From positions 1 through 34,326 of the IMG/VR virus record IMGVR_UViG_3300034021_001102: a stretch of DNA of 34,326 bases; one strand, given 5' to 3'. Source of the stretch: a virus. Below the pieces are notes generated by a model. That model saw only the letters and a list, made by a program, of their open reading frames with translations, had not been told where the DNA came from and searched no databases. Shown here in pieces: positions 10,100 to 33,653 of the stretch; position 1 is the stretch's first letter; the number at the start of each line of letters is the position of its first letter. The translations under genes and the position numbers were made by a program.

Positions 10100-11226
10100 A
10101 TCCAGAAACAACACTACCAGCACACGCCGAGTTCGGCCCTTCGTCGCTTAAATACGTATCGCTCTGCGCCGGATTCCACGGCAAGAACGAGACTAACAAA
10201 GCCGCAGAAGTAGGCACTCGTATACATGAGGCGCTTGAGACCAGAGACCCGTCCGCGCTGCAAAGCGAGGAGGAACTGCAAATGTACGAGCGTTTACTCT
10301 CGGAAGAGAACGAAGTCTTTGAGAACGTCTTCGGCGGAACTGACGGAGTCACAATCCACAAAGAGATGCGCCTGCATCTTGAGCTGGACTGCAAGACTCC
10401 GACCTTCGGTACTTCGGATATTGTCGCTTTCAAAGACGGCATCGGTCTATTGGTTGACTACAAGACTGGCATCAGCAAGATCGACGAGCCGAGAAACAAC
10501 TGGCAGGCCAAAGCGTACACACTCGCGGCGTTCCAGATGTTTCCGGACCTCAAACTGATCCACTTTGCTTTCCTCGTTCCGAAGCGCGACGAGATTCTTG
10601 TCGGGCACTTCGAGCGCGGAGAAGCCGACCGCCTCCGCGAAGAGATCAGTTCTGTTATCCTCGCAGCAGAGCAGACTCGCCCCAAATGGGAGACCAAGAC
10701 GGTTGACATCGACGACCTCAACCCAACGGTCAACTGCCGATTCTGCCGACATGAGGACCACTGTCCAGCATTAGGCGCTGTCTGCATCGAAGTCGCAGAG
10801 CGTTACAAGCCGGAGCTTCTTCCGGACGGGCCGATCGCGTCGCACGATGTGGACGATCCGGAAACTCTGGAGAAGCTGTACGTTGTGGCGAAGATCGTCG
10901 AGAACTGGGCCAGCGGAATTAAGAACAAAGCGACGGCTCTTGCGCTCTCCGGTCAGGAGTTCAACTCACTGAAACTTCGTTCAATGGGCGCACTCAAAAA
11001 GACGGTCGAGAAAAATTATCTTGCACAACTCGCGATTCGGTATGGACTTGAGCTCTCCGACGTCATCGAAGCCGCTGACCTTACCATGAACCAGTTGTCC
11101 AAAGCACTGCACGACAAAGCGCCTAAAGGCAAAAAATCTTTCGTAGTCCAATCCTTCGAACGCGAAGCCGTTGATCTCGGCATCGTGCAAGTCGGCCAGA
11201 CACGATACACACTTTCCTCGAAGTGA
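10096..11226 (+). CDS. Cas4/RecB-like PD-(D/E)XK exonuclease with Fe-S cluster cysteines (DUF2800-like)
   Basis: This 376-residue protein carries the RecB-family nuclease signature: GTRIHEALE (40-48), Glu 90, GTSDIV (Asp 108), LLVDYKTG (Asp 121, Lys 123) and the WQAKAY motif (Gln 137 to Tyr 141). Cys 24 together with Cys 214, 217 and 223 gives the one-plus-three cysteine layout that holds a 4Fe-4S cluster in Cas4 and AddB. The C-terminal 150 residues are helical and outside the nuclease core. The architecture fits DUF2800-type phage exonucleases. Directly downstream is a putative ssDNA-binding or annealing protein, so the pair may process ends for recombination-dependent replication. Confidence 0.85.
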   Translation: MNPETTLPAHAEFGPSSLKYVSLCAGFHGKNETNKAAEVGTRIHEALETRDPSALQSEEELQMYERLLSEENEVFENVFGGTDGVTIHKEMRLHLELDCKTPTFGTSDIVAFKDGIGLLVDYKTGISKIDEPRNNWQAKAYTLAAFQMFPDLKLIHFAFLVPKRDEILVGHFERGEADRLREEISSVILAAEQTRPKWETKTVDIDDLNPTVNCRFCRHEDHCPALGAVCIEVAERYKPELLPDGPIASHDVDDPETLEKLYVVAKIVENWASGIKNKATALALSGQEFNSLKLRSMGALKKTVEKNYLAQLAIRYGLELSDVIEAADLTMNQLSKALHDKAPKGKKSFVVQSFEREAVDLGIVQVGQTRYTLSSK

Positions 11227-11273
11227 GGGAAATGGGAGTCGGTAGCCCCCTTCAATCAAGACGATCAAAGTCA

Positions 11274-11308
11274 GCTGCCAAATCAGAAACCAGAAGCCAT
11301 AATCCATG
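11274..11308 (+). repeat. Degenerate heptamers ending in a start codon
   Basis: GCTGCCA, AATCAGA, AACCAGA, AGCCATA, ATCCATG can be read without gaps; the last three bases of the final unit are the ATG at 11306. Units are more diverged than in the other two arrays, and the shared pattern is A-x-C-C-A-x-A. Confidence 0.55.
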
Positions 11309-11926
11309 AGCACAGCACTAACTACAACCAGTAACAGTCTTGCGTTTGTTTCGCAGGACATCGACATCCCCCGTCTCAACGTCATCCAAAAGATGTCTGA
11401 GATTGAGGGACCAGTTGGCTCCGTCGTTCTCGACAAGGAGTCTGTTCTCCTACAGGCAGAACAGAAAGCTCCGGTCGTGGTCGTCGGCGCTCTCAAGCGA
11501 TGGAAGGAAGACGTACCCTTCGGAGAAGAGTACATTCCCAAAATCGTAAGCACCGAAGCCGAAGCTGAGGAACTCGCTAAAACTAGCGACTACGAAGTGA
11601 CGGAGTTCGCCGAAATCATCCTCCTCATCCCACAGGTTGGTGAAGATGACAGTCTGTTCCCGTATCCGATCGGGGACAAGAACTACCAGATCGGCCGGAT
11701 CACGGTCCAGAAGGACGCATACCGCCTCACCTACAAGAGGCTGTTCACCTTCCAGACCTTCAATCCTTCCGTTCCGGTTTCCTCCCGCTTCTGGAACTTC
11801 AGCACTGAGCTGATGTCCAAAGGCAAGTACAGCTGGTATGTTCCGACTCTTTCGCACACGAAAGACGACGTGCCTGCTGAGGTCACCGAGTTCGCAACTC
11901 GTTTGACAGGAGGAGGTGCAGCATGA
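11306..11926 (+). CDS. Putative ssDNA-binding or recombination accessory protein
   Basis: This 206-residue protein has a Thr/Ser-rich N-terminus, then IDIPRLNVIQKMSEI and a beta-rich core (APVVVVGALKRWKEDVPFG, YQIGRITVQKDAYRLTYKR) with many aromatic residues that could stack on bases. It ends in a Gly-rich tail. Position directly after a DUF2800-like exonuclease is where phages often encode an OB-fold-type partner, and the size and strand-rich look agree. No signature motif proves it, so the call rests mainly on context. An overlap by ATGA links it to the next gene, which here does have a GGAGGAGG ribosome-binding site. Confidence 0.5.
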   Translation: MSTALTTTSNSLAFVSQDIDIPRLNVIQKMSEIEGPVGSVVLDKESVLLQAEQKAPVVVVGALKRWKEDVPFGEEYIPKIVSTEAEAEELAKTSDYEVTEFAEIILLIPQVGEDDSLFPYPIGDKNYQIGRITVQKDAYRLTYKRLFTFQTFNPSVPVSSRFWNFSTELMSKGKYSWYVPTLSHTKDDVPAEVTEFATRLTGGGAA

Positions 11927-12162
11927 TTATCAACACACCTAATCCGTTAGCGGTACTCAAAAGGGAGTCCGACTCGATCCGTGCAGTAATTACCACAATC
12001 GACGGTAATATTGCAGACCTCAACAACAAGATCACTGAGCTTGCTACTCAAAAGCACTCGCTCAACCTTGTCGTGACTGCGATCGACAATGAGATGGATC
12101 GACTCCGCAGTATTGGAGTCGAAGAACAACTTGAACTTCCTCTCGACGAGGAAGTTGAGTAA
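11923..12162 (+). CDS. Small coiled-coil protein
   Basis: This 79-residue protein has a near-continuous heptad pattern (SIRAVITTIDGNIADLNNKI, then ITELATQKHSLNLVVTAI) and an acidic tail (EEQLELPLDEEVE). The acidic C-terminus could dock a partner. It overlaps the preceding gene by ATGA and has a GGAGGAGG sequence 7 nt before its ATG, one of the few Shine-Dalgarno sites in the window. Context suggests a replication accessory factor. Confidence 0.7.
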   Translation: MIINTPNPLAVLKRESDSIRAVITTIDGNIADLNNKITELATQKHSLNLVVTAIDNEMDRLRSIGVEEQLELPLDEEVE

Positions 12163-12175
12163 ACGCATGGGACAA

Positions 12176-12207
12176 GCCTGCACGTCGTTGGACATCGGCG
12201 TGCAGGC
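12176..12207 (+). promoter_or_regulatory. Strong hairpin in the DNA polymerase leader
   Basis: GCCTGCACGTCG (12176-12187) pairs with CGGCGTGCAGGC (12196-12207) through 12 bp including one G-U, around the loop TTGGACAT. It ends 16 nt before ATG 12224 and is followed by AACCTTTTAC. It could attenuate transcription into polymerase or control its translation. It also argues against the alternative in-frame ATG at 12167, which would make it coding. Confidence 0.6.
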
Positions 12208-12223
12208 AACCTTTTACAATCAT

Positions 12224-13999
12224 ATGGATACCTATGCCTTGGACTTTGAGTCCTACTACGATAGTGAGTGCTCGATCACGACTCTAGGCCCGAAAGGTTA
12301 CTTCTCTCATCCGGCGTTCGACGCCTATATGGCAACCGTCGTATCTGATAGCGGGTACGAGTTTGTCGGAAACCCTAGGGACTTTGACTGGTTGATACTC
12401 AACGGCCAGCGTGTGATTTCCCACAACGCGGCTTTCGATGAAAGCCTGTATCTTTTCGGCGTCGAGTCCGGCTGGTGGCCTGCATGCAGTCCTGCTGAGT
12501 GGCACTGTACCGCTGACATGACCGCTTTCCTTGGCCTGCCGAGATCTCTCAAGAACGCATCCGCTGCGGTCTTAGGGGTCGAGGTCAGCAAAGACGTGCG
12601 CTCGAACATGAAGGGCAAGCGGTGGGAGACTATGACAGAAGACTTCCGTACGCAAGTTAGGGACTACGCTCTTCTGGACTCACGGTACTGTTTGCAGCTA
12701 TGGCAAAAACTAGAGGATCAATGGCCGCAAACCGAACGCGAAATCAGTTTACTCAATCGGAGTATTGGACAGCGCGGCCTGCCGATCGATACCGATCTGC
12801 TTCGCAAGAATCTTGAGACAATCCATACGGAACTATTTGAGGCCGAGCAGTCGATTCCGTGGATCGGAGATTACACGCCGCTATCTAGAAAAGCATTCAA
12901 CGAGCAATGCCGAACCCAAGGCATTGAGCCTCCGGCCTCTATCGCGATGGGCAACAAAGAGTCCGACAAGTGGTTTGCTGCTCATCAGCAGGCTTGTCCG
13001 TGGGCGAGAGCCGTGCAGAACTACCGCCGCATCAATGCGTTCCTTCGTAAACTGGAAGCGTTTGATAATGGCACGATGCCAGACCAAAGATACTACGGCG
13101 GTCTGATGTACTGCGGGGCAAACCCAACTGCTCGCTTTAGCGGCAGCGGCGGCAACCTCAACCTTCAGAATCTTCCGAGAGATGAGATGTTCGGCGTCAA
13201 CTTTCGCCACATGATCCGGCCCAAGAAAGGATACAAGCTCATCGTAGCTGACCTGTCTCAAATTGAGGTTCGCACTCTATGCTGGCTGGCCAAAGACGAA
13301 GAAGCGCTAGAGCTAATCCGAGAGTCTGATGACATATACCATGCTTTCGGCGTGCTGCTGAAGTTGCATGATCCAGTTAACGGGCCGTTGAAAGCATTCG
13401 ATCCAAAGCTACGCCACAAAGTGAAATCAATTGTCCTTGGCTGTGGGTACGGTATGGGACCGACAAAGTTTGCTACATTCAGCGGACTGCCGTTGAGCGA
13501 AGCCGAGGAGGCGGTGGCTTTGTACCGAGACCGCATGCAGTCAGTTCGATCATTGTGGCGGAAACTCGATAGAAAACTGCCTGTTGCTTATTCGACCAAT
13601 GAGCCATTCAAACTCGATCTACCGTCCGGAAGAAAAATGCGTTATGGCGTACTCACGCGAATGACGGATAAATCCGCAGACAACATTCGCTACCGCTACA
13701 TAGGCAAATTAGTCCGCAACGGTCAGCTTCGTGACTTTGCCCTATGGGGCGGGATCTTAACAGAGAACCTGTCACAAGCGCTCGCGAGAGATATTTTCTG
13801 CGACATGCTGCTGCGAATTGACAAAGCTGGATTCCCGATCATTCTGCACGTTCACGATGAAGTGGTGCTTGAAGTTCCGGAAGACACAGCAGAGGACGCG
13901 CTACAGCAAGTCCTTCAAATCATGTCCACTCCTCCGGACTGGATACCGGACATTCCGGTTGCAGCCGAAGGCCACATCCTAAATCTTTACTCCAAATAA
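12224..13999 (+). CDS. Family A DNA polymerase with 3'-5' exonuclease
   Basis: This 591-residue replicative polymerase contains only proofreading and polymerase domains. Exo I is LDFESYY (Asp 7, Glu 9), exo II lies around ISHNAAFDESLY and exo III around YALLDSRYCLQLW. Polymerase motif A is DLSQIEVR (Asp 343), motif B is KVKSIVLGCGYG (Lys 401, Leu 405) and motif C is HVHDEVVLEV (Asp 545). The 5'-3' nuclease domain of bacterial Pol I is absent, as usual in phages. At the position equivalent to E. coli Phe 762 there is Leu 405. I chose ATG 12224 because family members begin close to the DFE motif and a hairpin precedes it; 12167 is the alternative and adds 19 residues. Confidence 0.93.
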   Translation: MDTYALDFESYYDSECSITTLGPKGYFSHPAFDAYMATVVSDSGYEFVGNPRDFDWLILNGQRVISHNAAFDESLYLFGVESGWWPACSPAEWHCTADMTAFLGLPRSLKNASAAVLGVEVSKDVRSNMKGKRWETMTEDFRTQVRDYALLDSRYCLQLWQKLEDQWPQTEREISLLNRSIGQRGLPIDTDLLRKNLETIHTELFEAEQSIPWIGDYTPLSRKAFNEQCRTQGIEPPASIAMGNKESDKWFAAHQQACPWARAVQNYRRINAFLRKLEAFDNGTMPDQRYYGGLMYCGANPTARFSGSGGNLNLQNLPRDEMFGVNFRHMIRPKKGYKLIVADLSQIEVRTLCWLAKDEEALELIRESDDIYHAFGVLLKLHDPVNGPLKAFDPKLRHKVKSIVLGCGYGMGPTKFATFSGLPLSEAEEAVALYRDRMQSVRSLWRKLDRKLPVAYSTNEPFKLDLPSGRKMRYGVLTRMTDKSADNIRYRYIGKLVRNGQLRDFALWGGILTENLSQALARDIFCDMLLRIDKAGFPIILHVHDEVVLEVPEDTAEDALQQVLQIMSTPPDWIPDIPVAAEGHILNLYSK

Positions 14000-16160: not shown

Positions 16161-16678
16161 ATCGTCCGCTTTGTGATCTTTCGCTTTGGCGGGTTCAATT
16201 CGGATATCGGCAACGTGTACTCGTCCGCAAACGAGAGCTTGCCGTCATCCGGATTGATATGGCCTTTCGGCAGAAACAGTGCCTGCTCGATGAAAGATCG
16301 GGCGGGCAGCCAGCCGACGACGTAGACTTTGGACAGCGCCGAGTTGCACCTAACAAAATAGTAGACATCGCATTTGGCGCAGAGTTTTTCTTTGTCTTTC
16401 TCCGACCCGTACACACGGGCAACATAGTGGGGTAATGGCTCTACGCTTCCCCTAGTCGTCTTTACATCAACCGTTACGCCGTTCGGCAGAACAAGATCGT
16501 AAGCGTAAATCCGGTTGCCGACCCGCTCGCCGCCGAATAGATCGTGGATGACGATCTCACCCATCATTCCGGTCTCGTTGCCTTGGCCTCTAGTAAACGA
16601 GTTCCGTAAGGAACCCATATCCTTGGCCTCCCTCCGAGCTTGTTTTCGCATCGTCGGGGTGGGCTCGATAAAAATCAT
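16130..16678 (-). CDS. PD-(D/E)XK nuclease-like protein
   Basis: This 182-residue protein has GNETGMMGEIVIHDLFGG (Glu 41), YDLVLPNGVTVDVKTTR (Asp 61, Asp 71, Lys 73) and a C-terminal VYVVGWLPARSFIEQA region. The E...D...D-x-K pattern is the core of PD-(D/E)XK nucleases. From memory, small phage proteins with 'YDL-L-VDVKT ... GWLP' are frequent in marine phages, perhaps for host DNA degradation. It overlaps the stop of the adaptor-like gene (ATGA) on the same strand, so it belongs to the late strand operon. Its 3' end overlaps the primase-helicase 3' end by 31 nt on the opposite strand. Confidence 0.7.
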   Translation of the reverse strand: MIFIEPTPTMRKQARREAKDMGSLRNSFTRGQGNETGMMGEIVIHDLFGGERVGNRIYAYDLVLPNGVTVDVKTTRGSVEPLPHYVARVYGSEKDKEKLCAKCDVYYFVRCNSALSKVYVVGWLPARSFIEQALFLPKGHINPDDGKLSFADEYTLPISELNPPKRKITKRTIQKSSPLSMS

Positions 16679-17622
16679 CAGTAGATTGTGTAGAGATTAT
16701 TCCGATTGCTGGTCCCGTACGGATCCACGTTCAGGCGCGGAATCGCCGCACCTCTGGACGAAGCCATATCTTCCTCCAGAAGAAGCTGTGCACGTTGCCA
16801 ATGGTAGTCGGCACGCTCAAGGTCTGCGTTGTCCTCCGCTAGACGGCCCAACAAGCCGTGCTTGAGAGCGCCAATGTTCGTCAGGTAGACGACATCTTCG
16901 TCATCCCACAACGGCTTGAACGCCCGCTTGCAGAGCACATGGACAGTCGTGACGTTGTCGGTCGCCCGATTCAGGCGGAACCAGCGGTATCGAGTGACTC
17001 CGGAGTCCGGACCGATTGTGGCGATGGTCGTCTCAGAATCGTCTGCGTCTATTCGAATGTCGTAGATGTCGGTAAGCCCGTCGAACTTGATCTCGCGGAT
17101 CGTCGTGATGTCCTCAGAGAAGGTAAGGGGCACGGCACTGCCGACCGCGACTCCGGTAGTGGAGGTGTAGACCTTATCTCCATCGGTAGCCGAGATCGAA
17201 ACTGTGCCGCCACTGCTCGTACTAAAGGCAGTTGTCGCGGCGGACTCCGCTGCCGGAACTAGATGAAGGGTGTCGGTCGCGTCGTCGATTAGGAGCTTGG
17301 TCGGCCAGTAGCCCGCGTCGATCAGCCCCCATAGAAGATCGGCTCCGTTATGGTTGAGCCCGACCGAGCGGTAGTCATGCCACAAAGACCGGACCGGAGA
17401 AGGGTGGCCGTCCACCATTGTGTGCAATACCGAATCGGCTTCTTTCGGAAGCACGACATGTCCGCTTTGGACGGGCAGGCTGAACTGGATGGTCAGGTCC
17501 CGATAGGTTCCACTCCGTTGCAGGCGGTCGAGCACTTGATTTAGGCTAGACTTGAAGTCGCCGTTAGGCTCGATGTACGAACCTAAAAGCGGCCTGAGCT
17601 GATTGAGGGTCATTGCGGCCAT
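16678..17622 (-). CDS. Putative head-tail adaptor or tail tube protein
   Basis: This 314-residue protein begins MAAMTLNQLRPLLGSYIEP and has an N-terminal helical part, a beta-rich centre with low-complexity Thr/Ser segments (TTAFSTSSGGTVSISATDG), and a C-terminal helical region (ALKHGLLGRLAEDNADLERA) followed by WQRAQLLLEEDM. That C-terminal helix is typical of adaptor and tail tubular A-type proteins that stack below the portal. The central beta insertion could be a decoration. The assignment rests on this layout and on the late-strand position; no diagnostic motif exists. A second in-frame ATG lies at 17613. Confidence 0.45.
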   Translation of the reverse strand: MAAMTLNQLRPLLGSYIEPNGDFKSSLNQVLDRLQRSGTYRDLTIQFSLPVQSGHVVLPKEADSVLHTMVDGHPSPVRSLWHDYRSVGLNHNGADLLWGLIDAGYWPTKLLIDDATDTLHLVPAAESAATTAFSTSSGGTVSISATDGDKVYTSTTGVAVGSAVPLTFSEDITTIREIKFDGLTDIYDIRIDADDSETTIATIGPDSGVTRYRWFRLNRATDNVTTVHVLCKRAFKPLWDDEDVVYLTNIGALKHGLLGRLAEDNADLERADYHWQRAQLLLEEDMASSRGAAIPRLNVDPYGTSNRNNLYTIY

Positions 17623-17760: not shown

Positions 17761-17769
17761 GTCAGCGGC

Positions 17770-17798
17770 AGACTAGCCTACGGGCTCCGGTTTGTCAA
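17770..17798 (-). promoter_or_regulatory. Putative minus-strand promoter (TTGTCAAC motif, copy B)
   Basis: On the minus strand TTGACA (17798-17793), 17 bp, TAGTCT (17775-17770), then 9 nt to the ATG at 17760. The -35 lies in TTTGTCAACCAAATTAAG (plus-strand reading, 17791-17808), which matches copy A at 789. The spacing again predicts a nearly leaderless mRNA. Confidence 0.55.
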
Positions 17799-17810
17799 CC
17801 AAATTAAGAC

Positions 17811-17839
17811 TTGACCGGATACAGGATTCTGCTTAAGGT
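17811..17839 (+). promoter_or_regulatory. Putative plus-strand promoter of the virion-protein island
   Basis: TTGACC (17811-17816), 17 bp, TAAGGT (17834-17839), 20 nt before the ATG at 17860. The spacer contains GGATACAGGATTCT, two heptamers like those at 826-860. It is divergent from the promoter at 17770-17798, and the two -35 boxes are 12 bp apart. Confidence 0.5.
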
Positions 17840-17859
17840 ATGGCTGATTCCTAAATACT

Positions 17860-18633
17860 ATGGCCCTTACAGCAGACCAAAAAAGACGGGTTCAAGAAGC
17901 ACGATCCGGCAAACAAGAGCCCCCTTTGAGCATACAGGGGCAGCGACAGTCTCCTTTGGCGGCAGCTAAATCTGAGATTGCTCAGGCGAACGCGGCGTTT
18001 GAACAGAAAAACAAATATTTTTTGGACACAGGAGTTGATTTTGTAAATAAAGCTGTCAATACATCCAATAAAGGAGAAGTTGATTACGGTGGGGCAAATG
18101 AAGCGGGAAACTTTTTTCAAGGACAAGCAAAAGATTTAGCTTCAATTGCAGGCAATGTCGCTAGACAAGGGCAGAAATGGGGGGAATACACCCCGTCTCC
18201 AAGTAACAGTAAACTTACAAACATGTCTACATATGCAGGCGTTCCCTTTGGGACGGCTGGTGCTGCCCTTTTGGCTAGGGGGGCTGAAAAAACTCTTGCA
18301 GAAGCTGAGAATGCTCGTTTGACAGGCAGGGCATCTATGACAAATGCAAACGCCTCTTTGTTGTCCTCCCAATCCGGCGCGGCAAAAAATTACGCCGATA
18401 TCGGAATGACGGAAAAAGAACTCCCGTTCCGGCTAGAAAATCTCCGTGCCGGAGCGGCCAAAACCTACGGCGATATAGGAAGAAACATCTACTCTTTGCC
18501 GTACGACGTTGATGCGACAAGGTCCGGTGCTGTTAGAAATTACACCGACAGCGCTACATCTTCTTTCCTTGCCCCGTATCAAGCACAACAAGCAGCGGCT
18601 CAGGCTATGGCTAATCTTAGATACTTCCGATGA
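17860..18633 (+). CDS. Ala-rich putative virion protein with 25-residue repeats
   Basis: This 257-residue, Ala/Gly/Asn/Ser-rich protein has no signal peptide. Its C-terminal part holds three tandem 25-residue repeats beginning at about 166: SGAAKNYADIGMTEKELPF..., AGAAKTYGDIGRNIYSLPY..., SGAVRNYTDSATSSFLAPY.... The shared pattern is xGAxxxY-DIG...LPY/F. The N-terminal half is Gln/Lys-rich and contains LAAAKSEIAQANAAFEQKN. I do not recognise a family. Its place in a plus-strand pair inside the structural cluster suggests an internal or ejected virion protein. It overlaps the next gene by ATGA. Confidence 0.6.
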   Translation: MALTADQKRRVQEARSGKQEPPLSIQGQRQSPLAAAKSEIAQANAAFEQKNKYFLDTGVDFVNKAVNTSNKGEVDYGGANEAGNFFQGQAKDLASIAGNVARQGQKWGEYTPSPSNSKLTNMSTYAGVPFGTAGAALLARGAEKTLAEAENARLTGRASMTNANASLLSSQSGAAKNYADIGMTEKELPFRLENLRAGAAKTYGDIGRNIYSLPYDVDATRSGAVRNYTDSATSSFLAPYQAQQAAAQAMANLRYFR

Positions 18634-19106
18634 GCAACTACAAAATCGGCTCAACCTACACGTCCTCCGGCAGCCTGAATCCGAGAGCGTTTAGCACGAT
18701 CTCGGATCCGAATACCGGAAGGAGGCTCACATGGGGGCAAACGGAATCTATGTTCCCGTCGTTCGGAACAACGAGTCCTACGACAGGTTCGGCGTTTAGT
18801 GAGACGACGTCAAACATCCGTGCAGGCTTAGCGGGCTCCGCTTTCGGTGACCCGAATGATCGTACCGGACGCCTAGTTGAGCGTGCCTTAGGCAGAGCAG
18901 ATCGGGTCTTAGGCACTGGCGGCGCAGCTTCCGGAGGAGTCCGGACAGACGCCTTCGGCAAACCGCTCGATCAGAACAACGGCAGTCCGTTCCAGTACGC
19001 TAAAGACACGAATGTGTACGGTCGTCCGTTCGGTACACAAATCACCGGAAACTACGGGAATAGGCCGCTTGAAGGAACTAGGGTAGCGACTAACTGGCGT
19101 TACTAA
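18630..19106 (+). CDS. Gly/Thr/Ser/Asn-rich putative virion protein
   Basis: This 158-residue low-complexity protein starts at an ATGA overlap. It is rich in Gly, Ser, Thr, Asn and Arg, with short motifs such as GSTYTSSGSLNPRAFS, RLVERALGRADRVLGTGG and TNVYGRPFGTQITGNYGNRP. The look is that of an intrinsically flexible structural or ejected protein. It ends 4 nt before the convergent minus-strand gene. No family recognised. Confidence 0.55.
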   Translation: MSNYKIGSTYTSSGSLNPRAFSTISDPNTGRRLTWGQTESMFPSFGTTSPTTGSAFSETTSNIRAGLAGSAFGDPNDRTGRLVERALGRADRVLGTGGAASGGVRTDAFGKPLDQNNGSPFQYAKDTNVYGRPFGTQITGNYGNRPLEGTRVATNWRY

Positions 19107-19110
19107 TTCT

Positions 19111-19794
19111 TCAAAAGAACGTACTGCTCATTGAAATTGTCATAGTTTCTTTGAGCTGGTAGCCTCCAATATAGGATATTTGCTCAAGATAAATCTGGCT
19201 AAGCCCGACACTTTTGAATTCTAACGCAAGCTGGGCGTCGTTAACGTGCCAGTTAAAAAAAAACCGTCCGTATTTGTGGATACAGGATATGTATGGAACA
19301 GGACTGAAATCGACATCTCCCTCATACACTCCATACCAATTATATCGCGAGAATAAACCCCAGTACACATCTGCCGTTTCGTCATCAGCACTGCCTGTTT
19401 CGAAAGCCCAATAGCCCGTAGACGATCCTTGGTCTCCGTTTAAAGTAAAATTTGCTGGGCCTTGCGAGAATATAAAATTGTAGGGGTCGTTTACTTGAGC
19501 TCCAATTATTGGACCAGATAAATTAAATATGCGATCATAAAATCTTGTTTGGCTATCCGTCTGTACCGTGCACGTGTCTTCATCGCACACCAAAGAATCA
19601 AGTGTGCGAGTTACTTGAATTGATTTGGCGTTCATTAGCCACTGCCCAAAAACATCGGAACCTACTTCTATGCTGTCATAGATGCCGCTATCGGAGCCGT
19701 TCCAAAAGTCTTCGTCTTTAGCGGTATTCTCAAACCCTCCCATATATGGGCCGAGAATATACGTGGCATTCCGCAAATATTCCTGAAGATCCAT
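19111..19794 (-). CDS. Hypothetical tail-region protein
   Basis: This 227-residue, beta-rich acidic protein has many aromatic residues. Visible segments are TYILGPYMGGFENTAKDEDF, CDEDTCTVQTDSQTRFYDRI, WGLFSRYNWYGVYEGDVDF and IHKYGRFFFNWHVNDAQLAL. The two nearby cysteines (CDEDTC) may pair. No known family recognised. Encoded on the minus strand downstream of the large propeller protein, it is probably a late protein. It ends 4 nt from the convergent plus-strand gene. Confidence 0.65.
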   Translation of the reverse strand: MDLQEYLRNATYILGPYMGGFENTAKDEDFWNGSDSGIYDSIEVGSDVFGQWLMNAKSIQVTRTLDSLVCDEDTCTVQTDSQTRFYDRIFNLSGPIIGAQVNDPYNFIFSQGPANFTLNGDQGSSTGYWAFETGSADDETADVYWGLFSRYNWYGVYEGDVDFSPVPYISCIHKYGRFFFNWHVNDAQLALEFKSVGLSQIYLEQISYIGGYQLKETMTISMSSTFF

Positions 19795-19803
19795 ACCGGA
19801 CCA

Positions 19804-20223
19804 CTAAAAAGGTTTAAAGTGGAAACGAGCCATTAGAGACACTACGCCCAATTGGCCGTTTTTCCACGCCAGCATCGGGATCAAGTGTTCCACTGAACCA
19901 GAAGTCAGTGCTGAAGCGGGAGGAGGGGCGGGAGGAATTGACGGAACAGACGGAAGTTGTTGTGATGCTGGCTTGCCTTCGTCAGCAGCTTTAGAGACCG
20001 ACGTAGAAATAACGCCCCCTCCGGATACTGAACCGGAACGCTTAGACCGACTTTCGTCAACGAATGTGTTTACAAACTTCTGCATCTGCTCTTGGGACAC
20101 AAACGCACTCGTCGGCGCGTTCACGACGGCACTGACCATTTCCGCTGTGTTCATGCCGCGAGTATCAATACCCGCTTCAAACGCAGTTTCTTTTGCGATC
20201 GTTCTTTTAGATTCGTCAGCCAT
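19804..20223 (-). CDS. Proline-rich putative virion protein
   Basis: From the ATG at 20223, placed right after the upstream stop as TAAATATG, this is 139 residues. A helical N-terminus with KRTIAKETAFEAGIDTRGM and FVSQEQMQKFVNTFVDESRS is followed by a Gly/Ser/Lys stretch and a proline-rich hinge (PSVPSIPPAPPPAS). The C-terminus is hydrophobic (HLIPMLAWKNGQLGVVSL then ARFHFKPF). No family recognised. A longer in-frame reading starting at 20280 would overlap the previous gene heavily and is less likely. Confidence 0.6.
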   Translation of the reverse strand: MADESKRTIAKETAFEAGIDTRGMNTAEMVSAVVNAPTSAFVSQEQMQKFVNTFVDESRSKRSGSVSGGGVISTSVSKAADEGKPASQQLPSVPSIPPAPPPASALTSGSVEHLIPMLAWKNGQLGVVSLMARFHFKPF

Positions 20224-20225
20224 AT

Positions 20226-23200
20226 TTATGCGAGTTGTCTTGCGTCTACAACGGTGGCAGCGCACCGGAACCAACCCCATTTGTAGTACTCAATCTTGTA
20301 ATCAATCAAGTACAATCCGACCCTAGGAATATCGGTTGGGCTAGATCTCGGCACACCACACACGGCTTGAGCTCTAACATTGGAAGCAACTGAAGATGGT
20401 TTGTGTGTAGTCGTAGCTGAATTAGCAGCTGACAAACCTACGATTTGTGATGTAGGGGATACAGACTTGGTGCTTTGAAACGAAACGCCGTTTGTGAGAA
20501 CATTTGAAATCTCCGAAACTGAGATTCTTGTGTCGACACTGTACGAAAAACTTTGGGATCGTGAGACACTAGCATAAATTGAATCTTCGGTCACAGCATC
20601 CGTTTTTTGCTCCCCTTTTGTCGTTCTTCCAGACACACTCTTAGACACTCCGACAGCACGACCGGAAGATGTCTTAAAAACAGGCCAAGGCAAAAGTGTG
20701 TATGAGTCTGAATCCTGTTCATCGGTCACACTTACCCGAAGAGTTCTGGTCTCCCGAACACCGCCTTTTCGTACATGCAATTTGAAGTCGGTTGTTTTGT
20801 ATACCGCTACCCTCAAAGTTCCTTGTTTTTTAAGCCAGTAATTTTTCTGTGGCCTATAAGGAACTACGCTGAACAAAGGATCGCTTTGTTCGCTTTTCGA
20901 GAAGAATAGAAAGCCTGCGTCATCGGGCGCTTCGATTTTAATCTCAAAGGTATCTGAACCCGTTCCGTCGGAGTATCCAGCAAACTGTCGGTCGGAGTTT
21001 TGTATTTGATAAGATCCCCACATATCTTTGATTGTCGGAGGAGGCGGGCCCGTAGGTGTTCCGGCAATGGAGAATGAAGTGCCCGTACTGGTATTGATGT
21101 ACCTAATGGAATGGTTATAAGTATCACATATTACCAATCTATCGTCCCCTGAAATGTTCTTAAAGAACAATCCGTGGGGCGCGTAGAACCGCATGTTTAG
21201 GCCAGTTCCGTCCGTAGTCTGAGGTTCTCGCAAATTGCCGTACGGTGATGTTACAACGCCAGCTGAAGTTATTTTTCGAATGTTGTTAAACTGGGATGTT
21301 ACGTACAAGTCGCCGTTGGACTTGTTTATTGCCATTCCTCTAAAAAAATAAAATCTAGCTGACGCACCCGTGCCATCATCAAGACCCCACACTCCGGCTT
21401 GTCCGGCTAAGGTAGTCACTGAATACGCTCCACCGCTGTACTCGATCTTTCTAATCCTACGGTTTTCAGCAACATAAATTGTTGGGTTAGCTCCGGACCC
21501 AACAACAATTCCCTCAGGATAGGTAAACCGAGCGTTCGCAAGAGTTCCCTCCGCAGTTCCAGAAGTTCCGGATAGTCCGGCAAAGGTAGTTACAACTCCA
21601 GCTGAAGTAATTTTACGGATGGAGTGGTTATAATAATCCGCCACATAAATATCCCCATTATCTGCTGCTGCGATACCGCTAATATAGGAACCAAATCTAG
21701 CTGCACTTCCGGTTCCATCTGTTGTTCCTGTTTCTTTTGGGTCTCCAGCTAGTGTTGTCACAACCCCCGCCGGAGTAATTTTTCGGATAGCGCTTCCACT
21801 ATCTGCCACATAAATATTATCTGAACTATCAATTGTCAAAAACTTAGGAGTCGTAAAACGGGCGCTCGCTCCAGTTCCGTTTGTCGTTCCAGTTTGTCCT
21901 GCCGTTCCAGCAAATGTCGTCACTGTGTCAGTGAATCCCGTAGATTTTCTGATAACATGGTTTGCAGAGTCGGCGACAAAAAAGTTATTGTTGCTGTCAA
22001 CAACTATTGCGGTAGGCGTGTTAAATCTAACGCCTGCAATTGTAGTGGCCCATTCTAGAACCACATCATCTCCTGACTGTACGTATGATTTGTTTACATC
22101 AAACTTCGAAATCAACGTGGAGTCTGCCGACTCAACTACAGCGACGTTAATCGCTTTCTTTGTAGAGCCGTTCGAGTTAGTTAGTACCAGCTCATAATTG
22201 GTACTGGTTGTCGGACTAACTGTCAACGATCCAACGGAGTTTACAGGTGAGCCGTTTAATGTTACGGACGATGCGCCTCTAGTATCCCACTTTAGAACGG
22301 TACTATTACCGTTTATGATCGTAGACGGCTCCGCGTTAAACTCAAGAATAGACGGCTTGAAAAACCTACGCTGAACTTCTTGGCGGATCTCTTCCTCAGT
22401 AAAAGAAACTCTGGAAAGGTCTTCCGTGCTCTTATCGATAAAAAAGACAACATTATCAGCTTTAATGTCCCTCCCCCATATCCGTTGAATTTCAATGAAG
22501 AACTCCGGACTTGCACCTGCTGATCCTGAGGTGTCGGTTGAGCTCCCTCTTGAAACAGAAATTTTGTTTTCGCCAACATCGTCTCCTGTAAACGAAGTAG
22601 TCGCACGACCTCCGGACGAGTCGATGCTCCATAACACGCCTACCGATTTAAGGACTGGCGGGAGATCAAGATTGATACGTGACGGAAACGAGAACTTGTA
22701 GTTGGCCAGACCCGCTGCTGGCGTCTCCTCAGTGACTTTCAAGTAGCGGTCCTCATTGATCGGCGAGAACGAAGTAAAAGGAGTCTGAATGTCTGTGTCC
22801 GAAGGCGGCGCGACAAAAGTCTGCTTCGTTACAACCGGAGTGTTTAGTAATGGATCCCATTCCGATCTGCGCAGCTCCGGCCATGAATCGACCTTAACCG
22901 TCTCGACTACAAATTTGCCATCACCTAAAGGAGTGGACCGCGACTGGACTACATAGAGACCTGTTTCGGTCTCGTTACTGGACGTCAAAGTCTCGGTTAC
23001 TGAAGCAACGGTGCTGTTCTCTACGTAAGCCTGCGATCCGGTCAGAGTAATGGTGTCCGCCAGTTCGTCTCGGCTGATGTTCGTGACCAGCTTGACGTCC
23101 GGATTGATTTGCTTTTCTGTTACCGCCAGATCGTCGGCGTCGAGAGTCGGCTCTTCGGCCTGCCCTTCAACAATTCGATCGGTCCGAAGTGTTGGATATG

Positions 23201-23783
23201 TGGCCCTAAATCTTTCTGGGATAACGTCAGGCCGTTCTTTCTCGAAGGACGGAATGTCGTCCAGCAAAGACCGCTCGATGTATCGGTGGGCCTCAATGAT
23301 ATACAGCGAATCGAGTTCAGGTTGGTTCGTCTTCTGCTGTTCCTTGTCGAAGAAGATGTATTCGTCTTTTTCGAACATTCCCTTCGGCACATCAGGCATC
23401 GCAGTGCCGAACGGAATGTCCACCGGATCATATTCTGACCTCGGAGTGACGTAGACTCGTGTAATGATCCTGTAGTTCCGGTCTCCGGCCCGCCCGCCGA
23501 TACTCGCAAAACCTGTTGAGAAATTGTACAGATCCTGATTGGCGCGGTCGGCGGCGTAGTAGAACTCGAACAGACCTTCGCGCTGATCGGCTTCGACCTG
23601 CTTGACAAAAACCAGCTTATGATCAGGCCACTTTTTGGAATCCGGATGCGCCGTGCCGTATGCAGGAATCTCGGTACGGGTGCAGTCGCGCAGTTCGCTG
23701 AACAGCACATCGCTGCTCAGCGGAGTCGGAAAGATTTTGGTATCTTGCCGGAACGGCGACAGAGGTAGCTTAGAGATAGCCAT
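20226..23783 (-). CDS. Large virion protein with Ig-like domain and inserted NHL beta-propeller
   Basis: This 1185-residue protein is the longest in the window. The N-terminal 480 residues (with FSELRDCTRTEIPAYGTAHP) look, from memory, like structural proteins of uncultured marine podoviruses. An Ig-like domain follows at about 479-551 (STVLKWDTRGASSVTLNG, ending TVSPTTSTNYELVLTNS). A second Ig-like domain begins at about 555 but is interrupted by a six-blade NHL propeller at about 578-912. Each blade carries VTTxAG...DGTGxxARF...IYVAD...IRKI; the last is closed by SFSIAGTPTG. After a Pro-rich hinge the C-terminus is beta-rich. It is likely a tail or baseplate protein that binds a surface ligand. 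Minus-strand position just after a tail fibre supports this. Confidence 0.7.
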   Translation of the reverse strand: MAISKLPLSPFRQDTKIFPTPLSSDVLFSELRDCTRTEIPAYGTAHPDSKKWPDHKLVFVKQVEADQREGLFEFYYAADRANQDLYNFSTGFASIGGRAGDRNYRIITRVYVTPRSEYDPVDIPFGTAMPDVPKGMFEKDEYIFFDKEQQKTNQPELDSLYIIEAHRYIERSLLDDIPSFEKERPDVIPERFRATYPTLRTDRIVEGQAEEPTLDADDLAVTEKQINPDVKLVTNISRDELADTITLTGSQAYVENSTVASVTETLTSSNETETGLYVVQSRSTPLGDGKFVVETVKVDSWPELRRSEWDPLLNTPVVTKQTFVAPPSDTDIQTPFTSFSPINEDRYLKVTEETPAAGLANYKFSFPSRINLDLPPVLKSVGVLWSIDSSGGRATTSFTGDDVGENKISVSRGSSTDTSGSAGASPEFFIEIQRIWGRDIKADNVVFFIDKSTEDLSRVSFTEEEIRQEVQRRFFKPSILEFNAEPSTIINGNSTVLKWDTRGASSVTLNGSPVNSVGSLTVSPTTSTNYELVLTNSNGSTKKAINVAVVESADSTLISKFDVNKSYVQSGDDVVLEWATTIAGVRFNTPTAIVVDSNNNFFVADSANHVIRKSTGFTDTVTTFAGTAGQTGTTNGTGASARFTTPKFLTIDSSDNIYVADSGSAIRKITPAGVVTTLAGDPKETGTTDGTGSAARFGSYISGIAAADNGDIYVADYYNHSIRKITSAGVVTTFAGLSGTSGTAEGTLANARFTYPEGIVVGSGANPTIYVAENRRIRKIEYSGGAYSVTTLAGQAGVWGLDDGTGASARFYFFRGMAINKSNGDLYVTSQFNNIRKITSAGVVTSPYGNLREPQTTDGTGLNMRFYAPHGLFFKNISGDDRLVICDTYNHSIRYINTSTGTSFSIAGTPTGPPPPTIKDMWGSYQIQNSDRQFAGYSDGTGSDTFEIKIEAPDDAGFLFFSKSEQSDPLFSVVPYRPQKNYWLKKQGTLRVAVYKTTDFKLHVRKGGVRETRTLRVSVTDEQDSDSYTLLPWPVFKTSSGRAVGVSKSVSGRTTKGEQKTDAVTEDSIYASVSRSQSFSYSVDTRISVSEISNVLTNGVSFQSTKSVSPTSQIVGLSAANSATTTHKPSSVASNVRAQAVCGVPRSSPTDIPRVGLYLIDYKIEYYKWGWFRCAATVVDARQLA

Positions 23784-26561: not shown

Positions 26562-29024
26562 TCAGTAAACATACATTCGGATTAACCCAGCCCCTCCATT
26601 GCCGCCTGCTCCCGACGCTTGGCCGTTCAGTCCAGCACCTCCGCCGCCACCGCCCCCTCCGACAGTACCGTTTGCGCCAGTCCGAAGGGTGAGTGTCCCA
26701 GACCCTCCGCCGCCGCCGGACCCAAAACCGAAGACTGAAGTATCACCAGCAGTCGCCCCCACCAGCGACGTAGCCCCAGCTCTGCCCCCGATACGATAAA
26801 CATTGGTGTTGCCTGTGAAACCAGACCTACCACCATTTCCGGCAACATTCGATGTGTTGATTCCGCCGCCTCCTCCGCCACCGGATCCGGCCAACATATT
26901 GTTGCTGTCACTCGCGTTAGCCCCTGCACCGTTCGATCCTGCACCGCCTCCTTGTGACGTTACTGTGTTTCCGGGGAGTAATTGCGATGCGTCAGCGCGA
27001 CTCGCCGCTGCGGTTCCGGTTGTTGTGCCTCCGCCACTTCCGGCAAGACCTCCAATCGCCTGAATGAGTCCAGCGACGCTTGTGTTGCCACCGTTTGTAC
27101 CATTGTTACCGTTCGTGTCGGTCGCTGATACACTAGCTCCACCATTTCCGGCAGACCCAACGGTGTAAGAGATTGGCCAAGACAATGCGCTTACTGGGAT
27201 TATTTGGGTTATTACAAAACCACCAGAACCCCCGCCGCCGCCGCCTGATCTATCGGAAGCTGCGGCACCGAGCCGACCGCTACCACCACCCCCTCCGCCC
27301 CCGATAAGAAGAAATGAAACGAACTGCGCCCCAGTTGGTTGCGCTATTGTTCCGGTTCCGGGCGTACCATAGTCTTGAATTACTGGAGTAGATAGAGTGC
27401 CAAAAGACGCCCCGCCTGCGCCGTCTGCCGTCAATACTTGGCCACTCGTCGCGGCACCGCTGTTGATGTATCCAGCCGAAACCGTGCCGTCCGTCTGATC
27501 GGTTAGAGCAATAGTCCCACTATCATCCGGCAATTGGAAAGTTTGTAAATCAGTCAGGTCATCGCTCCTGATCGATCCGCCATAATAAACGCTTTGGATG
27601 AAGACTTCATCCTCTGATACCACTCTGCTGAAGTTGCAATCGCCATTGCCATCGCGGAATGCAAGCGTATGTGCCGTGTTACCGACAGACGACAAGCCGT
27701 TGACCTTCACGATGAAAGCGCCGTTGTTCTGATTGTCGCGCTCGACGCGGCCAACGGGTTGGATCAAATAGCCTTCCGGCGGCGTGTTAATAAGCCCACC
27801 TGTTTCGGCTACATACAACGTGTCGTTGATGGCGTAAGCGTTCGTATTGAACTGGGTCACTTGGCCTATAATGACCATGTGGCCCTCCGCGTTGGCCGAA
27901 AGGGCAGAGTCCATGACGCCGACGGCGGGCATTTTCGCTGGGTTGTCCGCCCGTGCCTTGCTGACCTCTGCGATAAGTGTTGGGCCGGAGCCGTGTGAGC
28001 CGGAAATGTAAACCGGATCACCCTTGGCAAGATTCTCGCCTGCGCGAACGTGTGCGTAGACAGATCCGGCAAGATTGCCGTGGATGTGGTCGGCGGTCAG
28101 GATGCCAGTAACCGCTGCGGTCGTCGCGGAAAGGTCGGTCAAGCCAGTAATAGAACCACCAGTAATTGTGACGTTGTTAGCGGCCTGCGTAGCGATAGTC
28201 CCAAGCCCAAGTGTCGTGCGCTGGGCAGCAGCGTCAGCATCGTCCAAGATCGCTCGTCCTGCAGCAGTGCAGGTGATTTCTTCGGCGTCACCTGCGCCGG
28301 AACTTTGTCTGCCGAGAATCTTATCGGTAGCTGAGATGTTCTGAATCTTTGCGTAAGTGACTGCATCATTGTCGATCGTCCATGTAGCGCCTGAACTGGA
28401 TACAGTGATGTCTCCTTTGTCGCCATCAGAGACGCCTGCAGTTGACCATTCGACATCGGTTGCGCCTGTGTTTACGGCGAGAAACTTTCCTGCGTTTCCT
28501 GTATAGCTCGGCAACAAATTGGTGCGGGCTCCGGCTGCGGTGGAAGCGCCAGTACCTCCGTCGGCTACGGCTAAGTCGGTAATGCCAGTAACGGAGCCGC
28601 CAGTGATTGTGACGTTACTAGCGTCTTGAGTAGCGATTGTACCTAAACCGAGGTTTGTTCTTGCGCCTGAGGCTGTAGAAGCGCCAGTACCTCCGTCGGC
28701 TACGGCTAAGTCGGTAATGCCAGTAACGGAGCCGCCAGTGATTGTGACGTTGTTTGCATTTTGAGTAGCAATCGTACCCAAGCCGAGATTTGTACGCGCT
28801 CCTGAAGCGGTAGACGAACCAGTACCGCCGTCAACAACAGGTAGCGGCACTTCGAGGTCCAACGAATTTATATGGAGATCGGCTGTGCCATCAGAGGCGG
28901 TCGAGCTCGTAACAACAAAGTCCTGCGGCGCTGACGGCGTGATGCCAGAAAGCGAAATCGTCTTTCCATCGATGACGGTCAGCTTGTACTTAGGTACTTC
29001 GGTGATGACGATGGTTTCAGCCAT
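26562..29024 (-). CDS. Long tail fibre with glycine-rich tip
   Basis: This 820-residue protein has three parts. Residues 1 to about 60 form a beta N-terminal domain (ITEVPKYKLTVIDGKTISLS). The shaft has repeats of VADGGTGASTASGARTNLG, LGTIATQDASNVTITGGS type, with a 45-residue period and near-identical copies at 28543-28751. The middle (about residue 300 on) includes HVRAGENLAKGDPVYISG, a strand-rich domain. From about residue 568 the tip is strongly glycine-rich (FLLIGGGGGGGSG onward), ending GGNGGAGLIRMYVY. Poly-Gly tips of this kind are receptor-binding in several phages. It is preceded by the short N-domain protein at 29399, so the pair mirrors 25923 and 25236. Confidence 0.8.
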   Translation of the reverse strand: MAETIVITEVPKYKLTVIDGKTISLSGITPSAPQDFVVTSSTASDGTADLHINSLDLEVPLPVVDGGTGSSTASGARTNLGLGTIATQNANNVTITGGSVTGITDLAVADGGTGASTASGARTNLGLGTIATQDASNVTITGGSVTGITDLAVADGGTGASTAAGARTNLLPSYTGNAGKFLAVNTGATDVEWSTAGVSDGDKGDITVSSSGATWTIDNDAVTYAKIQNISATDKILGRQSSGAGDAEEITCTAAGRAILDDADAAAQRTTLGLGTIATQAANNVTITGGSITGLTDLSATTAAVTGILTADHIHGNLAGSVYAHVRAGENLAKGDPVYISGSHGSGPTLIAEVSKARADNPAKMPAVGVMDSALSANAEGHMVIIGQVTQFNTNAYAINDTLYVAETGGLINTPPEGYLIQPVGRVERDNQNNGAFIVKVNGLSSVGNTAHTLAFRDGNGDCNFSRVVSEDEVFIQSVYYGGSIRSDDLTDLQTFQLPDDSGTIALTDQTDGTVSAGYINSGAATSGQVLTADGAGGASFGTLSTPVIQDYGTPGTGTIAQPTGAQFVSFLLIGGGGGGGSGRLGAAASDRSGGGGGGSGGFVITQIIPVSALSWPISYTVGSAGNGGASVSATDTNGNNGTNGGNTSVAGLIQAIGGLAGSGGGTTTGTAAASRADASQLLPGNTVTSQGGGAGSNGAGANASDSNNMLAGSGGGGGGGINTSNVAGNGGRSGFTGNTNVYRIGGRAGATSLVGATAGDTSVFGFGSGGGGGSGTLTLRTGANGTVGGGGGGGGAGLNGQASGAGGNGGAGLIRMYVY
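28543..28751 (-). repeat. Two identical 74-bp copies, 135-bp period, in the fibre gene
   Basis: The stretch 28543-28616 recurs without difference at 28678-28751, an offset of 135 bp or exactly 45 codons, so loss or gain keeps the reading frame. Sequence between the copies is diverged but related. A third, more diverged copy lies around 28140-28230. Recombination between copies would shorten or lengthen the fibre shaft. Confidence 0.8.
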
Positions 29025-32324: not shown

Positions 32325-33653
32325 TTAGGCAGCAGGAGTGGTGCTGGTGCGCTTGAAGAGGATCACATAACCGAATTCGGTTTTGATCGGCTTCGAGGCA
32401 GAAGCAAGCACGCCACGGAAGAAACCAATCGTGCCGTCCGGATTGAGTTCGACAGATGGGATGTTTTTCCATGCGAACTTGCCGCGATAGTTGACCGGAT
32501 CAAAGGTCAAGCCGTTCGAGCCAGTGATCGGCTCCGGAATCTGCGACTCCATCACGTCCTGATGAAGGATGTATGCAGCTTCGTAGTCGGCGGTTTCGTA
32601 ACCCGAATTGAGCGAGATCACGCCGCTGGAAGCGGAGTACGGAGACACGCGGGTAAGCGTTCCGGATGACGCGGTGAAACGCGGCGCAAGATCGTCGATC
32701 AGGTGGTAGAAGCCACGGAAGGACTTCTCGATACCCAACGGAGCGATGAGCTCGCTGACCTTCGCGTTGTTGTAACGAACGTCGTCGCGGAATCCGGCTT
32801 CGGTCTGGAGCGCGTAGGACGCTTCGGACGAGCAGACCAGCGCAAAGACCGGACGGGCGTTCTCGCGACCGTAAGCGTTCGTGCCAGCTCCGGCACGGAC
32901 CAAACGGAAGTAGATCGAGTCGAGGATCTTGTTGCTGATGTTCGCGGACGGGGTGTAGTCGATATCGACGCCGGACGACACGAAGTCGTTGTTGAGGTCG
33001 ATGCTGACGGTCGCCGTGTTCTCCTTCTTAGTGCTAGCGGAGACGTCGATCGTGGTAACGAACGGAGTTCCGGTGGAAAGACAAGGCACGAAGTTCGCGC
33101 ACAGCTTGTCGTACTCGTCACGGTAACGCTCTTCCCAAGAGTAGCGGGTCGAGTCGGTCAGCGCGTCCATCACAGCGCGAAGCTGCTCTTGGCGGTAAGC
33201 GGCGAAGCGGAGGTCTTCCACGTTGATGCGCGGCGACTCCACAACGGCACGCTTCAGCGAGTACTGCTTGAGCTGGCGAGCGAACGAGATGAACGCTTTG
33301 CCGTCAGTAGGACCAATGTTGGTGTCACGCGCACCGGTGATGATCTGGCTGACCGTGCTGGTCGTCAAAAGGCTCTCAGAGGTGTCAGCGCCGACGTCCG
33401 TCCAGCTCGTTCCGAAGAGAATCGAGCCGTTGGCTTCGGTCACAGGCAGTGCGCGATCATAGATCAGCGTGCCTAAGGTATAGCCCATTCCGTCAGGAAA
33501 GGCGGTTTGCTTGATGAGGTCCATCCACGGCGACACGTGAAGCGTGCGACGGTGAATGTCCTGACCGATCCGGTTCGCTTCTTGCGTAAGGATCGTGTCG
33601 ATATTGGTGGTTCCGTCCGTTTGGGTGAACGTTTGACCTGCTAGAATAGCCAT
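32325..33653 (-). CDS. Major capsid protein
   Basis: This 442-residue protein is the best major capsid candidate: correct size, next to a scaffold-like gene, on the late strand, with its own long leader and promoter-like element, and flanked by a decoration-like gene. The N-terminal arm reads MAILAGQTFTQTDGTTNIDT, then IGQDIHRRTLHVSPWMDLIK. Central parts such as ARPVFALVCSSEASYALQTE and a C-terminal strand-rich region fit an HK97-fold without N-terminal protease region. It would form the icosahedral shell. No sequence motif is diagnostic. The ATG at 33653 follows AACCCCCTACTAC and a short AT spacer, with no Shine-Dalgarno sequence. Confidence 0.75.
   Translation of the reverse strand: MAILAGQTFTQTDGTTNIDTILTQEANRIGQDIHRRTLHVSPWMDLIKQTAFPDGMGYTLGTLIYDRALPVTEANGSILFGTSWTDVGADTSESLLTTSTVSQIITGARDTNIGPTDGKAFISFARQLKQYSLKRAVVESPRINVEDLRFAAYRQEQLRAVMDALTDSTRYSWEERYRDEYDKLCANFVPCLSTGTPFVTTIDVSASTKKENTATVSIDLNNDFVSSGVDIDYTPSANISNKILDSIYFRLVRAGAGTNAYGRENARPVFALVCSSEASYALQTEAGFRDDVRYNNAKVSELIAPLGIEKSFRGFYHLIDDLAPRFTASSGTLTRVSPYSASSGVISLNSGYETADYEAAYILHQDVMESQIPEPITGSNGLTFDPVNYRGKFAWKNIPSVELNPDGTIGFFRGVLASASKPIKTEFGYVILFKRTSTTPAA

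Follow-up and report, generated by a model that had tools for sequence, protein, structure and literature searches.

Gene layout of the composite protein

What does an NHL beta-propeller do inside a phage protein, and how did it come to be there? The gene that raises this question lies on a virus contig of 34,326 bases, the whole of which was analysed in this work and is called the window below. The initial annotation had given the span of the gene as 20226-23783. This span stands, and a reading-frame check supplies the strand, which had not been stated: the plus strand is full of stops throughout, and the minus strand carries one open frame that starts at an ATG at 23783 and codes for a protein of 1185 aa, here called P0001. 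Its parts are listed below, the borders of the NHL units having been set by eye.

20229-23783, minus: whole protein P0001, 1185 aa (open frame; stop codon at 20226-20228)
23253-23783, minus: conserved N-terminal module, residues 1-177, common to the whole family (family profile, E 2.1e-63)
22890-23249, minus: single copy of a unit of about 126 aa, residues 179-298, likely a shaft repeat (71 bits)
20703-22355, minus: inserted block, residues about 477-1027 (empty-site profile, alignment, relative L012)
22128-22355, minus: first Ig-like domain, residues 477-552 (Ig profile, tblastn with an S-PM2 protein, pLDDT)
22038-22115, minus: probable second Ig-like domain, first part, predicted strands 560-579 (weak profile match)
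21048-22037, minus: six-bladed NHL propeller, residues 583-912 (Pfam NHL, model, structure match at Z 43)
21924-22037, minus: NHL unit 1, residues 583-620 (sequence)
21762-21923, minus: NHL unit 2, residues 621-674 (sequence)
21594-21761, minus: NHL unit 3, residues 675-730 (holds the best Pfam NHL stretch, 700-724)
21420-21593, minus: NHL unit 4, residues 731-788 (sequence)
21255-21419, minus: NHL unit 5, residues 789-843 (sequence)
21075-21254, minus: NHL unit 6, residues 844-903 (sequence)
21048-21074, minus: residues 904-912, final part of the last blade's outer strand (DSSP of the model, strand 902-907)
20718-20957, minus: probable second Ig-like domain, second part, within residues 943-1022 (Ig profile match)
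20229-20702, minus: C-terminal domain common to relatives, residues 1028-1185 (77.5 bits, E 1.1e-25; match to L012)

The NHL repeats form a six-bladed propeller

The NHL repeats of P0001 are not a chance resemblance, since the Pfam NHL family (PF01436) matches the protein with E 1.2e-22 (79.2 bits against a cut-off of 20, with matches above the cut-off at positions 21612-22025) and the teneurin NHL model, TEN_NHL, with E 7.5e-11. Beyond these two models Pfam finds nothing in the protein. Six repeats had been counted at about residues 578-912; the number is upheld, and the six units lie at residues 583-912.

A closed six-blade fold, as anticipated from the letters, is also what structure prediction points to. 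We used an AlphaFold2 model of residues 355-1185, built on an alignment of the close relative L004 with 32 viral and bacterial propellers; a full-length joint alignment of the family with the propeller proteins was set aside, as it pulled the propellers onto the N-terminus. The model has 24 strands over residues 590-907, arranged as six blades of four consecutive strands, with a pLDDT of 83-98 (mean per block of ten residues). Over the whole modelled piece the mean pLDDT is low, 64.9, because the outer parts are poorly covered, and values fall below 50 at the propeller junctions, near residues 581-583 and 911-948. In VIA-align the propeller is superposed on that of SOQ1 (7djl) with Z 43.1 and an rmsd of 1.8 Å over 315 aligned residues, and on that of human NHLRC2 (6g7w) with Z 42.2. 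Both solved proteins have the same six-bladed NHL fold (Z 42-43, rmsd 1.8-2.2 Å, 22-25% identity), and unlike P0001 neither has a phage context, SOQ1 being a protein of the plant chloroplast and NHLRC2 a human one. We consider the propeller fold established, and the model supports a complete closed ring of six blades, closure being read from the matches to solved structures. The remark that the last blade closes in velcro fashion through a strand containing AGTPTG is unsupported, because the strand order of the model has no strand exchange; the AGTPTG segment comes after the last blade's outer strand.

An Ig-like domain and a probable second one split by the propeller

Residues 477-552 match an Ig profile with 98 bits, a score that is inflated because the profile contains P0001 itself. 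A tblastn comparison independent of this profile matches a virion structural protein of the Synechococcus phage S-PM2 (protein 221, T4-like GC 737) to residues 480-581 of P0001 with E 5e-5, and the pLDDT by block is 72-94 over most of this first Ig-like domain. Besides the first Ig-like domain, the S-PM2 match takes in the leading part of the probable second one, and it breaks off at the start of the propeller of P0001; protein 221 has three Ig-like repeats without a propeller and is otherwise a different protein.

The initial annotation had the propeller interrupting a second Ig-like domain, and its two halves do flank the propeller. The first part ends at residue 582, immediately before the first blade. 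Positions 7-28 of the Ig profile match residues 561-582 weakly (-2.4 bits in place) and positions 43-78 match residues 985-1020, again weakly (4.1 bits); in L004 the latter positions match residues 949-985 with 10.5 bits. The pLDDT is about 63-76 for the first part and 63-79 across the parts. Joined, the two halves score 14.5-15.0 bits, whereas none of 400 same-letter shuffles exceeds 5.7; scored apart they reach 5.6 and 10.2 bits, so that little is gained by joining them, and for L004 the joined halves (15.4 bits) score below the C-terminal part by itself (17.0 bits). From these sequence matches the propeller is likely to be nested inside the second Ig-like domain. The one bacterial locus L175 has an Ig pair and then a propeller, in order and not nested, and partial Ig matches were seen at L205. 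We did not find the nested build in the literature searched, which takes in only a minority of subscription journals.

The block is an insertion with an empty site in relatives

Using the N-terminal 476 residues as query we obtained 80 phage loci, most of whose proteins are 400-550 aa long and without NHL repeats, and with an N-terminal alignment of the nearer members as query, 80 further loci. Among the roughly 153 contigs of the family, NHL repeats occur only in L004, a close relative from the first scan that is 53% identical in its best segment and has the same build. A chimeric assembly of P0001 was considered and is unlikely, L004 being a separately assembled contig.

To define the empty site we took, from the 80 further loci, 33 proteins of 612-649 aa with a like C-terminus, or 23 after removal of near-copies. 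By the profiles used, these 23 relatives have neither NHL nor Ig-like domains. Their profile matches P0001 in two collinear pieces, residues 1 to about 476 and 1028-1185. The first piece starts at model position 1 and scores 631 bits, its extension past residue 476 into the first Ig-like domain being of low confidence; the second places model positions 468-628 on residues 1028-1185 (77.5 bits, E 1.1e-25). L004 is likewise matched in two pieces. In the alignment at this site the relatives run from a loop straight into the motif WPVFKP, where P0001 has about 551 residues more. An alignment of the more distant L012 (512 aa) across the join scores 153, against 48 ± 8 for shuffles, none of 300 reaching it, and so confirms the homology of the C-terminus independently. 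The surroundings are also partly shared: judged by gene sizes and strands, L228, one of the 23 empty-site relatives, agrees with the window in gene order, and L012 shares two neighbours, of 314 aa and, by eye, of 182 aa. Neither terminal part had a relative in a protein search of INPHARED, and no further phage came from scanning with L012 or with A3, an alignment of the C-terminal region.

By these comparisons residues of about 477-1027 were inserted at a site that is clearly empty in relatives from the phage family, and on this alignment evidence we regard the insertion as established. The propeller had been read as an insertion into an Ig-like domain, and relatives lacking it were found; what was inserted is larger than had been thought, a whole Ig-Ig/propeller unit of about 551 aa.

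Divergence between two sister phages

The only two filled copies of the site are in phages that are near-identical around it. Over a 4-kb flank the window phage and L004 are 94.3% identical in DNA, and residues 1-235 of P0001 are 96% identical in protein (dS 0.52, dN 0.02). From there identity falls to 73% over residues 236-352, to 44% over residues 353-476 and to 39% for the propeller, where synonymous sites are saturated; the C-terminus is 55% identical, and the two genes downstream of P0001 differ as well. The strong divergence of the block between these two otherwise near-identical phages is thus established. At the DNA level the region strongly unlike L004 spans window positions 17761-22730, from the middle of the gene to the two downstream genes, with flanks of 83-94% identity. 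This region has either been exchanged by recombination or is changing very fast, and the gradual fall from residue 236 fits both. A tree in which the two propellers are held together is not rejected (p-AU 0.42), a result that speaks neither for nor against their being sisters.

Where did the propeller come from? It had been proposed that a host-derived domain was captured for receptor binding, in a spelling frequent in secreted proteins of Verrucomicrobiota, Planctomycetota and some other phyla. A scan of bacterial genomes with the propeller alone bears out the likeness, in that Verrucomicrobiota make up most of the top rows among the matches listed. The tree places no donor: the window propeller is at the tip of a long branch, none of its neighbours is supported, and for this reason we name no donor.

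A probable fibre-like carrier and the proposed role of the block

The N- and C-terminal parts of P0001 match nothing in PHROG, Pfam or NCBIfam, so that the case for a virion role is made from the gene context. Tail fibre and minor tail PHROGs are matched by the neighbouring gene at 26562-29024, a gene for an amidase/endolysin lies close by, and P0001 starts 2 bases past the end of the preceding 483-aa gene. The unit of about 126 aa, present once in P0001, occurs in one to four copies among relatives; the protein L240:1882-4923 has four, two of which are identical at 120 of 126 residues, which suggests a recent change of length. Because the copies of this unit vary as fibre shafts vary in length, we infer an elongated appendage, and taken with the gene context P0001 is probably a fibre-like virion protein. 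A model of the family member L010 has a pLDDT of 87, and its structure search gave no clear solved match; the best rows, at Z 4-6, include some tail-tip and baseplate chains tied with unrelated folds. Two other leads were followed. A virion assignment through the 314-aa neighbour at 16678-17622 was dropped, this protein being unrelated to the gene of L046 with a match to a virion PHROG, and a major capsid protein (MCP) role for 32325-33653 was not confirmed by any library searched. The family is variable in further ways: L041:4239-7364, of 1041 aa, has by eye the N-terminal module three times in tandem, and L007:6001-9108 and L008:6001-8820 carry very long TSTGTNTS and SSSGSQSS repeats, these two proteins differing little beyond the number of repeats.

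Our best reading is that the block is an adhesin cassette which was captured, sits at a fixed site in a family of phage fibres and is changing rapidly, and we think the explanation as a whole, a fibre-like phage protein with a captured Ig-propeller adhesin block, probably correct. The carrier would consist of the N-terminal module, the repeat unit of about 126 aa and the C-terminal domain, and would be a fibre-like appendage of the virion. At one loop in its C-terminal half it would have taken up the adhesin block of about 551 aa, in which an Ig-like domain is followed by a probable second one whose two parts flank the NHL propeller. The likely working is that the Ig-like domains would carry the propeller at a distance from the fibre, where it would bind a molecule of the host surface. 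A more elaborate version, to which we give somewhat less than even weight, is that the fixed acceptor loop takes whole heads, the propeller sitting in the strand B-C region of an Ig-like domain and the Ig pair in the fibre, with the head swapped between sister phages.

Could the block serve only as a spacer or decoration? It might lengthen or stiffen the fibre or make weak, unspecific contacts with particles or polysaccharide, with no specific receptor. We consider this unlikely, if still the most credible of the alternatives. Relatives do differ in length through the number of 126-aa units, the long Ser/Thr/Gly-rich repeats of L007 and L008 lie in the same half of the protein, so that bulk itself may vary, and the S-PM2 virion protein has its Ig-like domains without any propeller. 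However, a block that differs strongly between phages near-identical around it fits a changing partner better, and a closed propeller has the shape of a compact head rather than of a rod.

We give little credence to the idea that P0001 is made during infection as a protein for secretion or for the cell surface and is no part of the virion. Secreted proteins of bacteria often carry NHL and Ig repeats, and no library places the family in the virion. Against this, the gene follows the 483-aa gene so closely, in a run with tail fibre and endolysin genes whose order is the same in L228, and no signal peptide is recognisable by eye at the start of P0001.

The best matches of the propeller are the NHL domains of SOQ1, NHLRC2, TRIM and teneurin, none of which, to our knowledge, is an enzyme. 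It is least probable of all that the propeller is a depolymerase that attacks polysaccharide of the host surface as a lyase or hydrolase. Beta-propeller depolymerase domains have been reported in phages (PMC11448410), and a viral protein named beta-1,4-xyloglucan hydrolase is among the structure matches; P0001 matches no enzyme family of Pfam or NCBIfam.

If the block is an adhesin cassette, as we favour, and its propeller binds the host, NHL propellers join the five- and seven-bladed propellers as heads for phage adsorption. The locus offers a before-and-after case of a phage appendage gaining a large folded block, the same gene being empty in dozens of phages and filled in two, and by comparing its empty and filled forms, a pair supplied by nature, one could test what the block contributes.

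Other propellers on phage tail proteins

The initial annotation knew of no phage tail protein of this kind. Propeller-bearing phage tail proteins, those with NHL repeats included, are in fact already known. The tail fibres of the Nitratiruptor phages NrS-2 and NrS-3 (NRS2_61/NRS3_61) are reported to have NHL repeats, six in NrS-2 and three in NrS-3 (PMC9723563). As in P0001, itself a probable adhesion protein, the NHL part is variable, three repeats being absent in the sister phage. In contrast to P0001, the fibre is a different one, its repeats are by eye spelled differently, and it is described by annotation only, with neither a structure nor an empty site; with three repeats it does not necessarily form a closed propeller. 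Propellers are also discussed as receptor-binding domains in gp45 of the Staphylococcus phage phi11, P2 of PRD1 and gp131C of phiKZ (PMC4901313). On the reading proposed for P0001, it shares with them a beta-propeller on an adsorption protein and a proposed host binding; they are five- and seven-bladed, are not described as NHL, and no insertion in an Ig-like domain is mentioned in the passages on them.

In IMG/VR, NHL propellers are present in other proteins with tail PHROG matches, L121, L095 and L098; the first 781 residues of L121:3649-7083 match the tail protein family phrog_1101 (9e-193). The propellers of these proteins and of L086 differ from that of P0001 in being terminal or in tandem, on unrelated proteins. 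The recurrence of NHL propellers on unrelated phage tail proteins suggests repeated capture.

Some of these proteins deserve mention for their build. Both L121:3649-7083 and L123:3634-7047 are about 1140 aa long, with NHL-like repeats near residues 840-970. The 2193-aa phage protein L086:4603-11184 has four NHL propellers in tandem and by eye comes directly after genes like those of T4 gp25 and gp6; the next frame, 11212-13329, has NHL repeats too. Finally, at L093, L096, L097, L099 and L107, collagen-like GPTGPQG repeats are joined to one or more NHL propellers.
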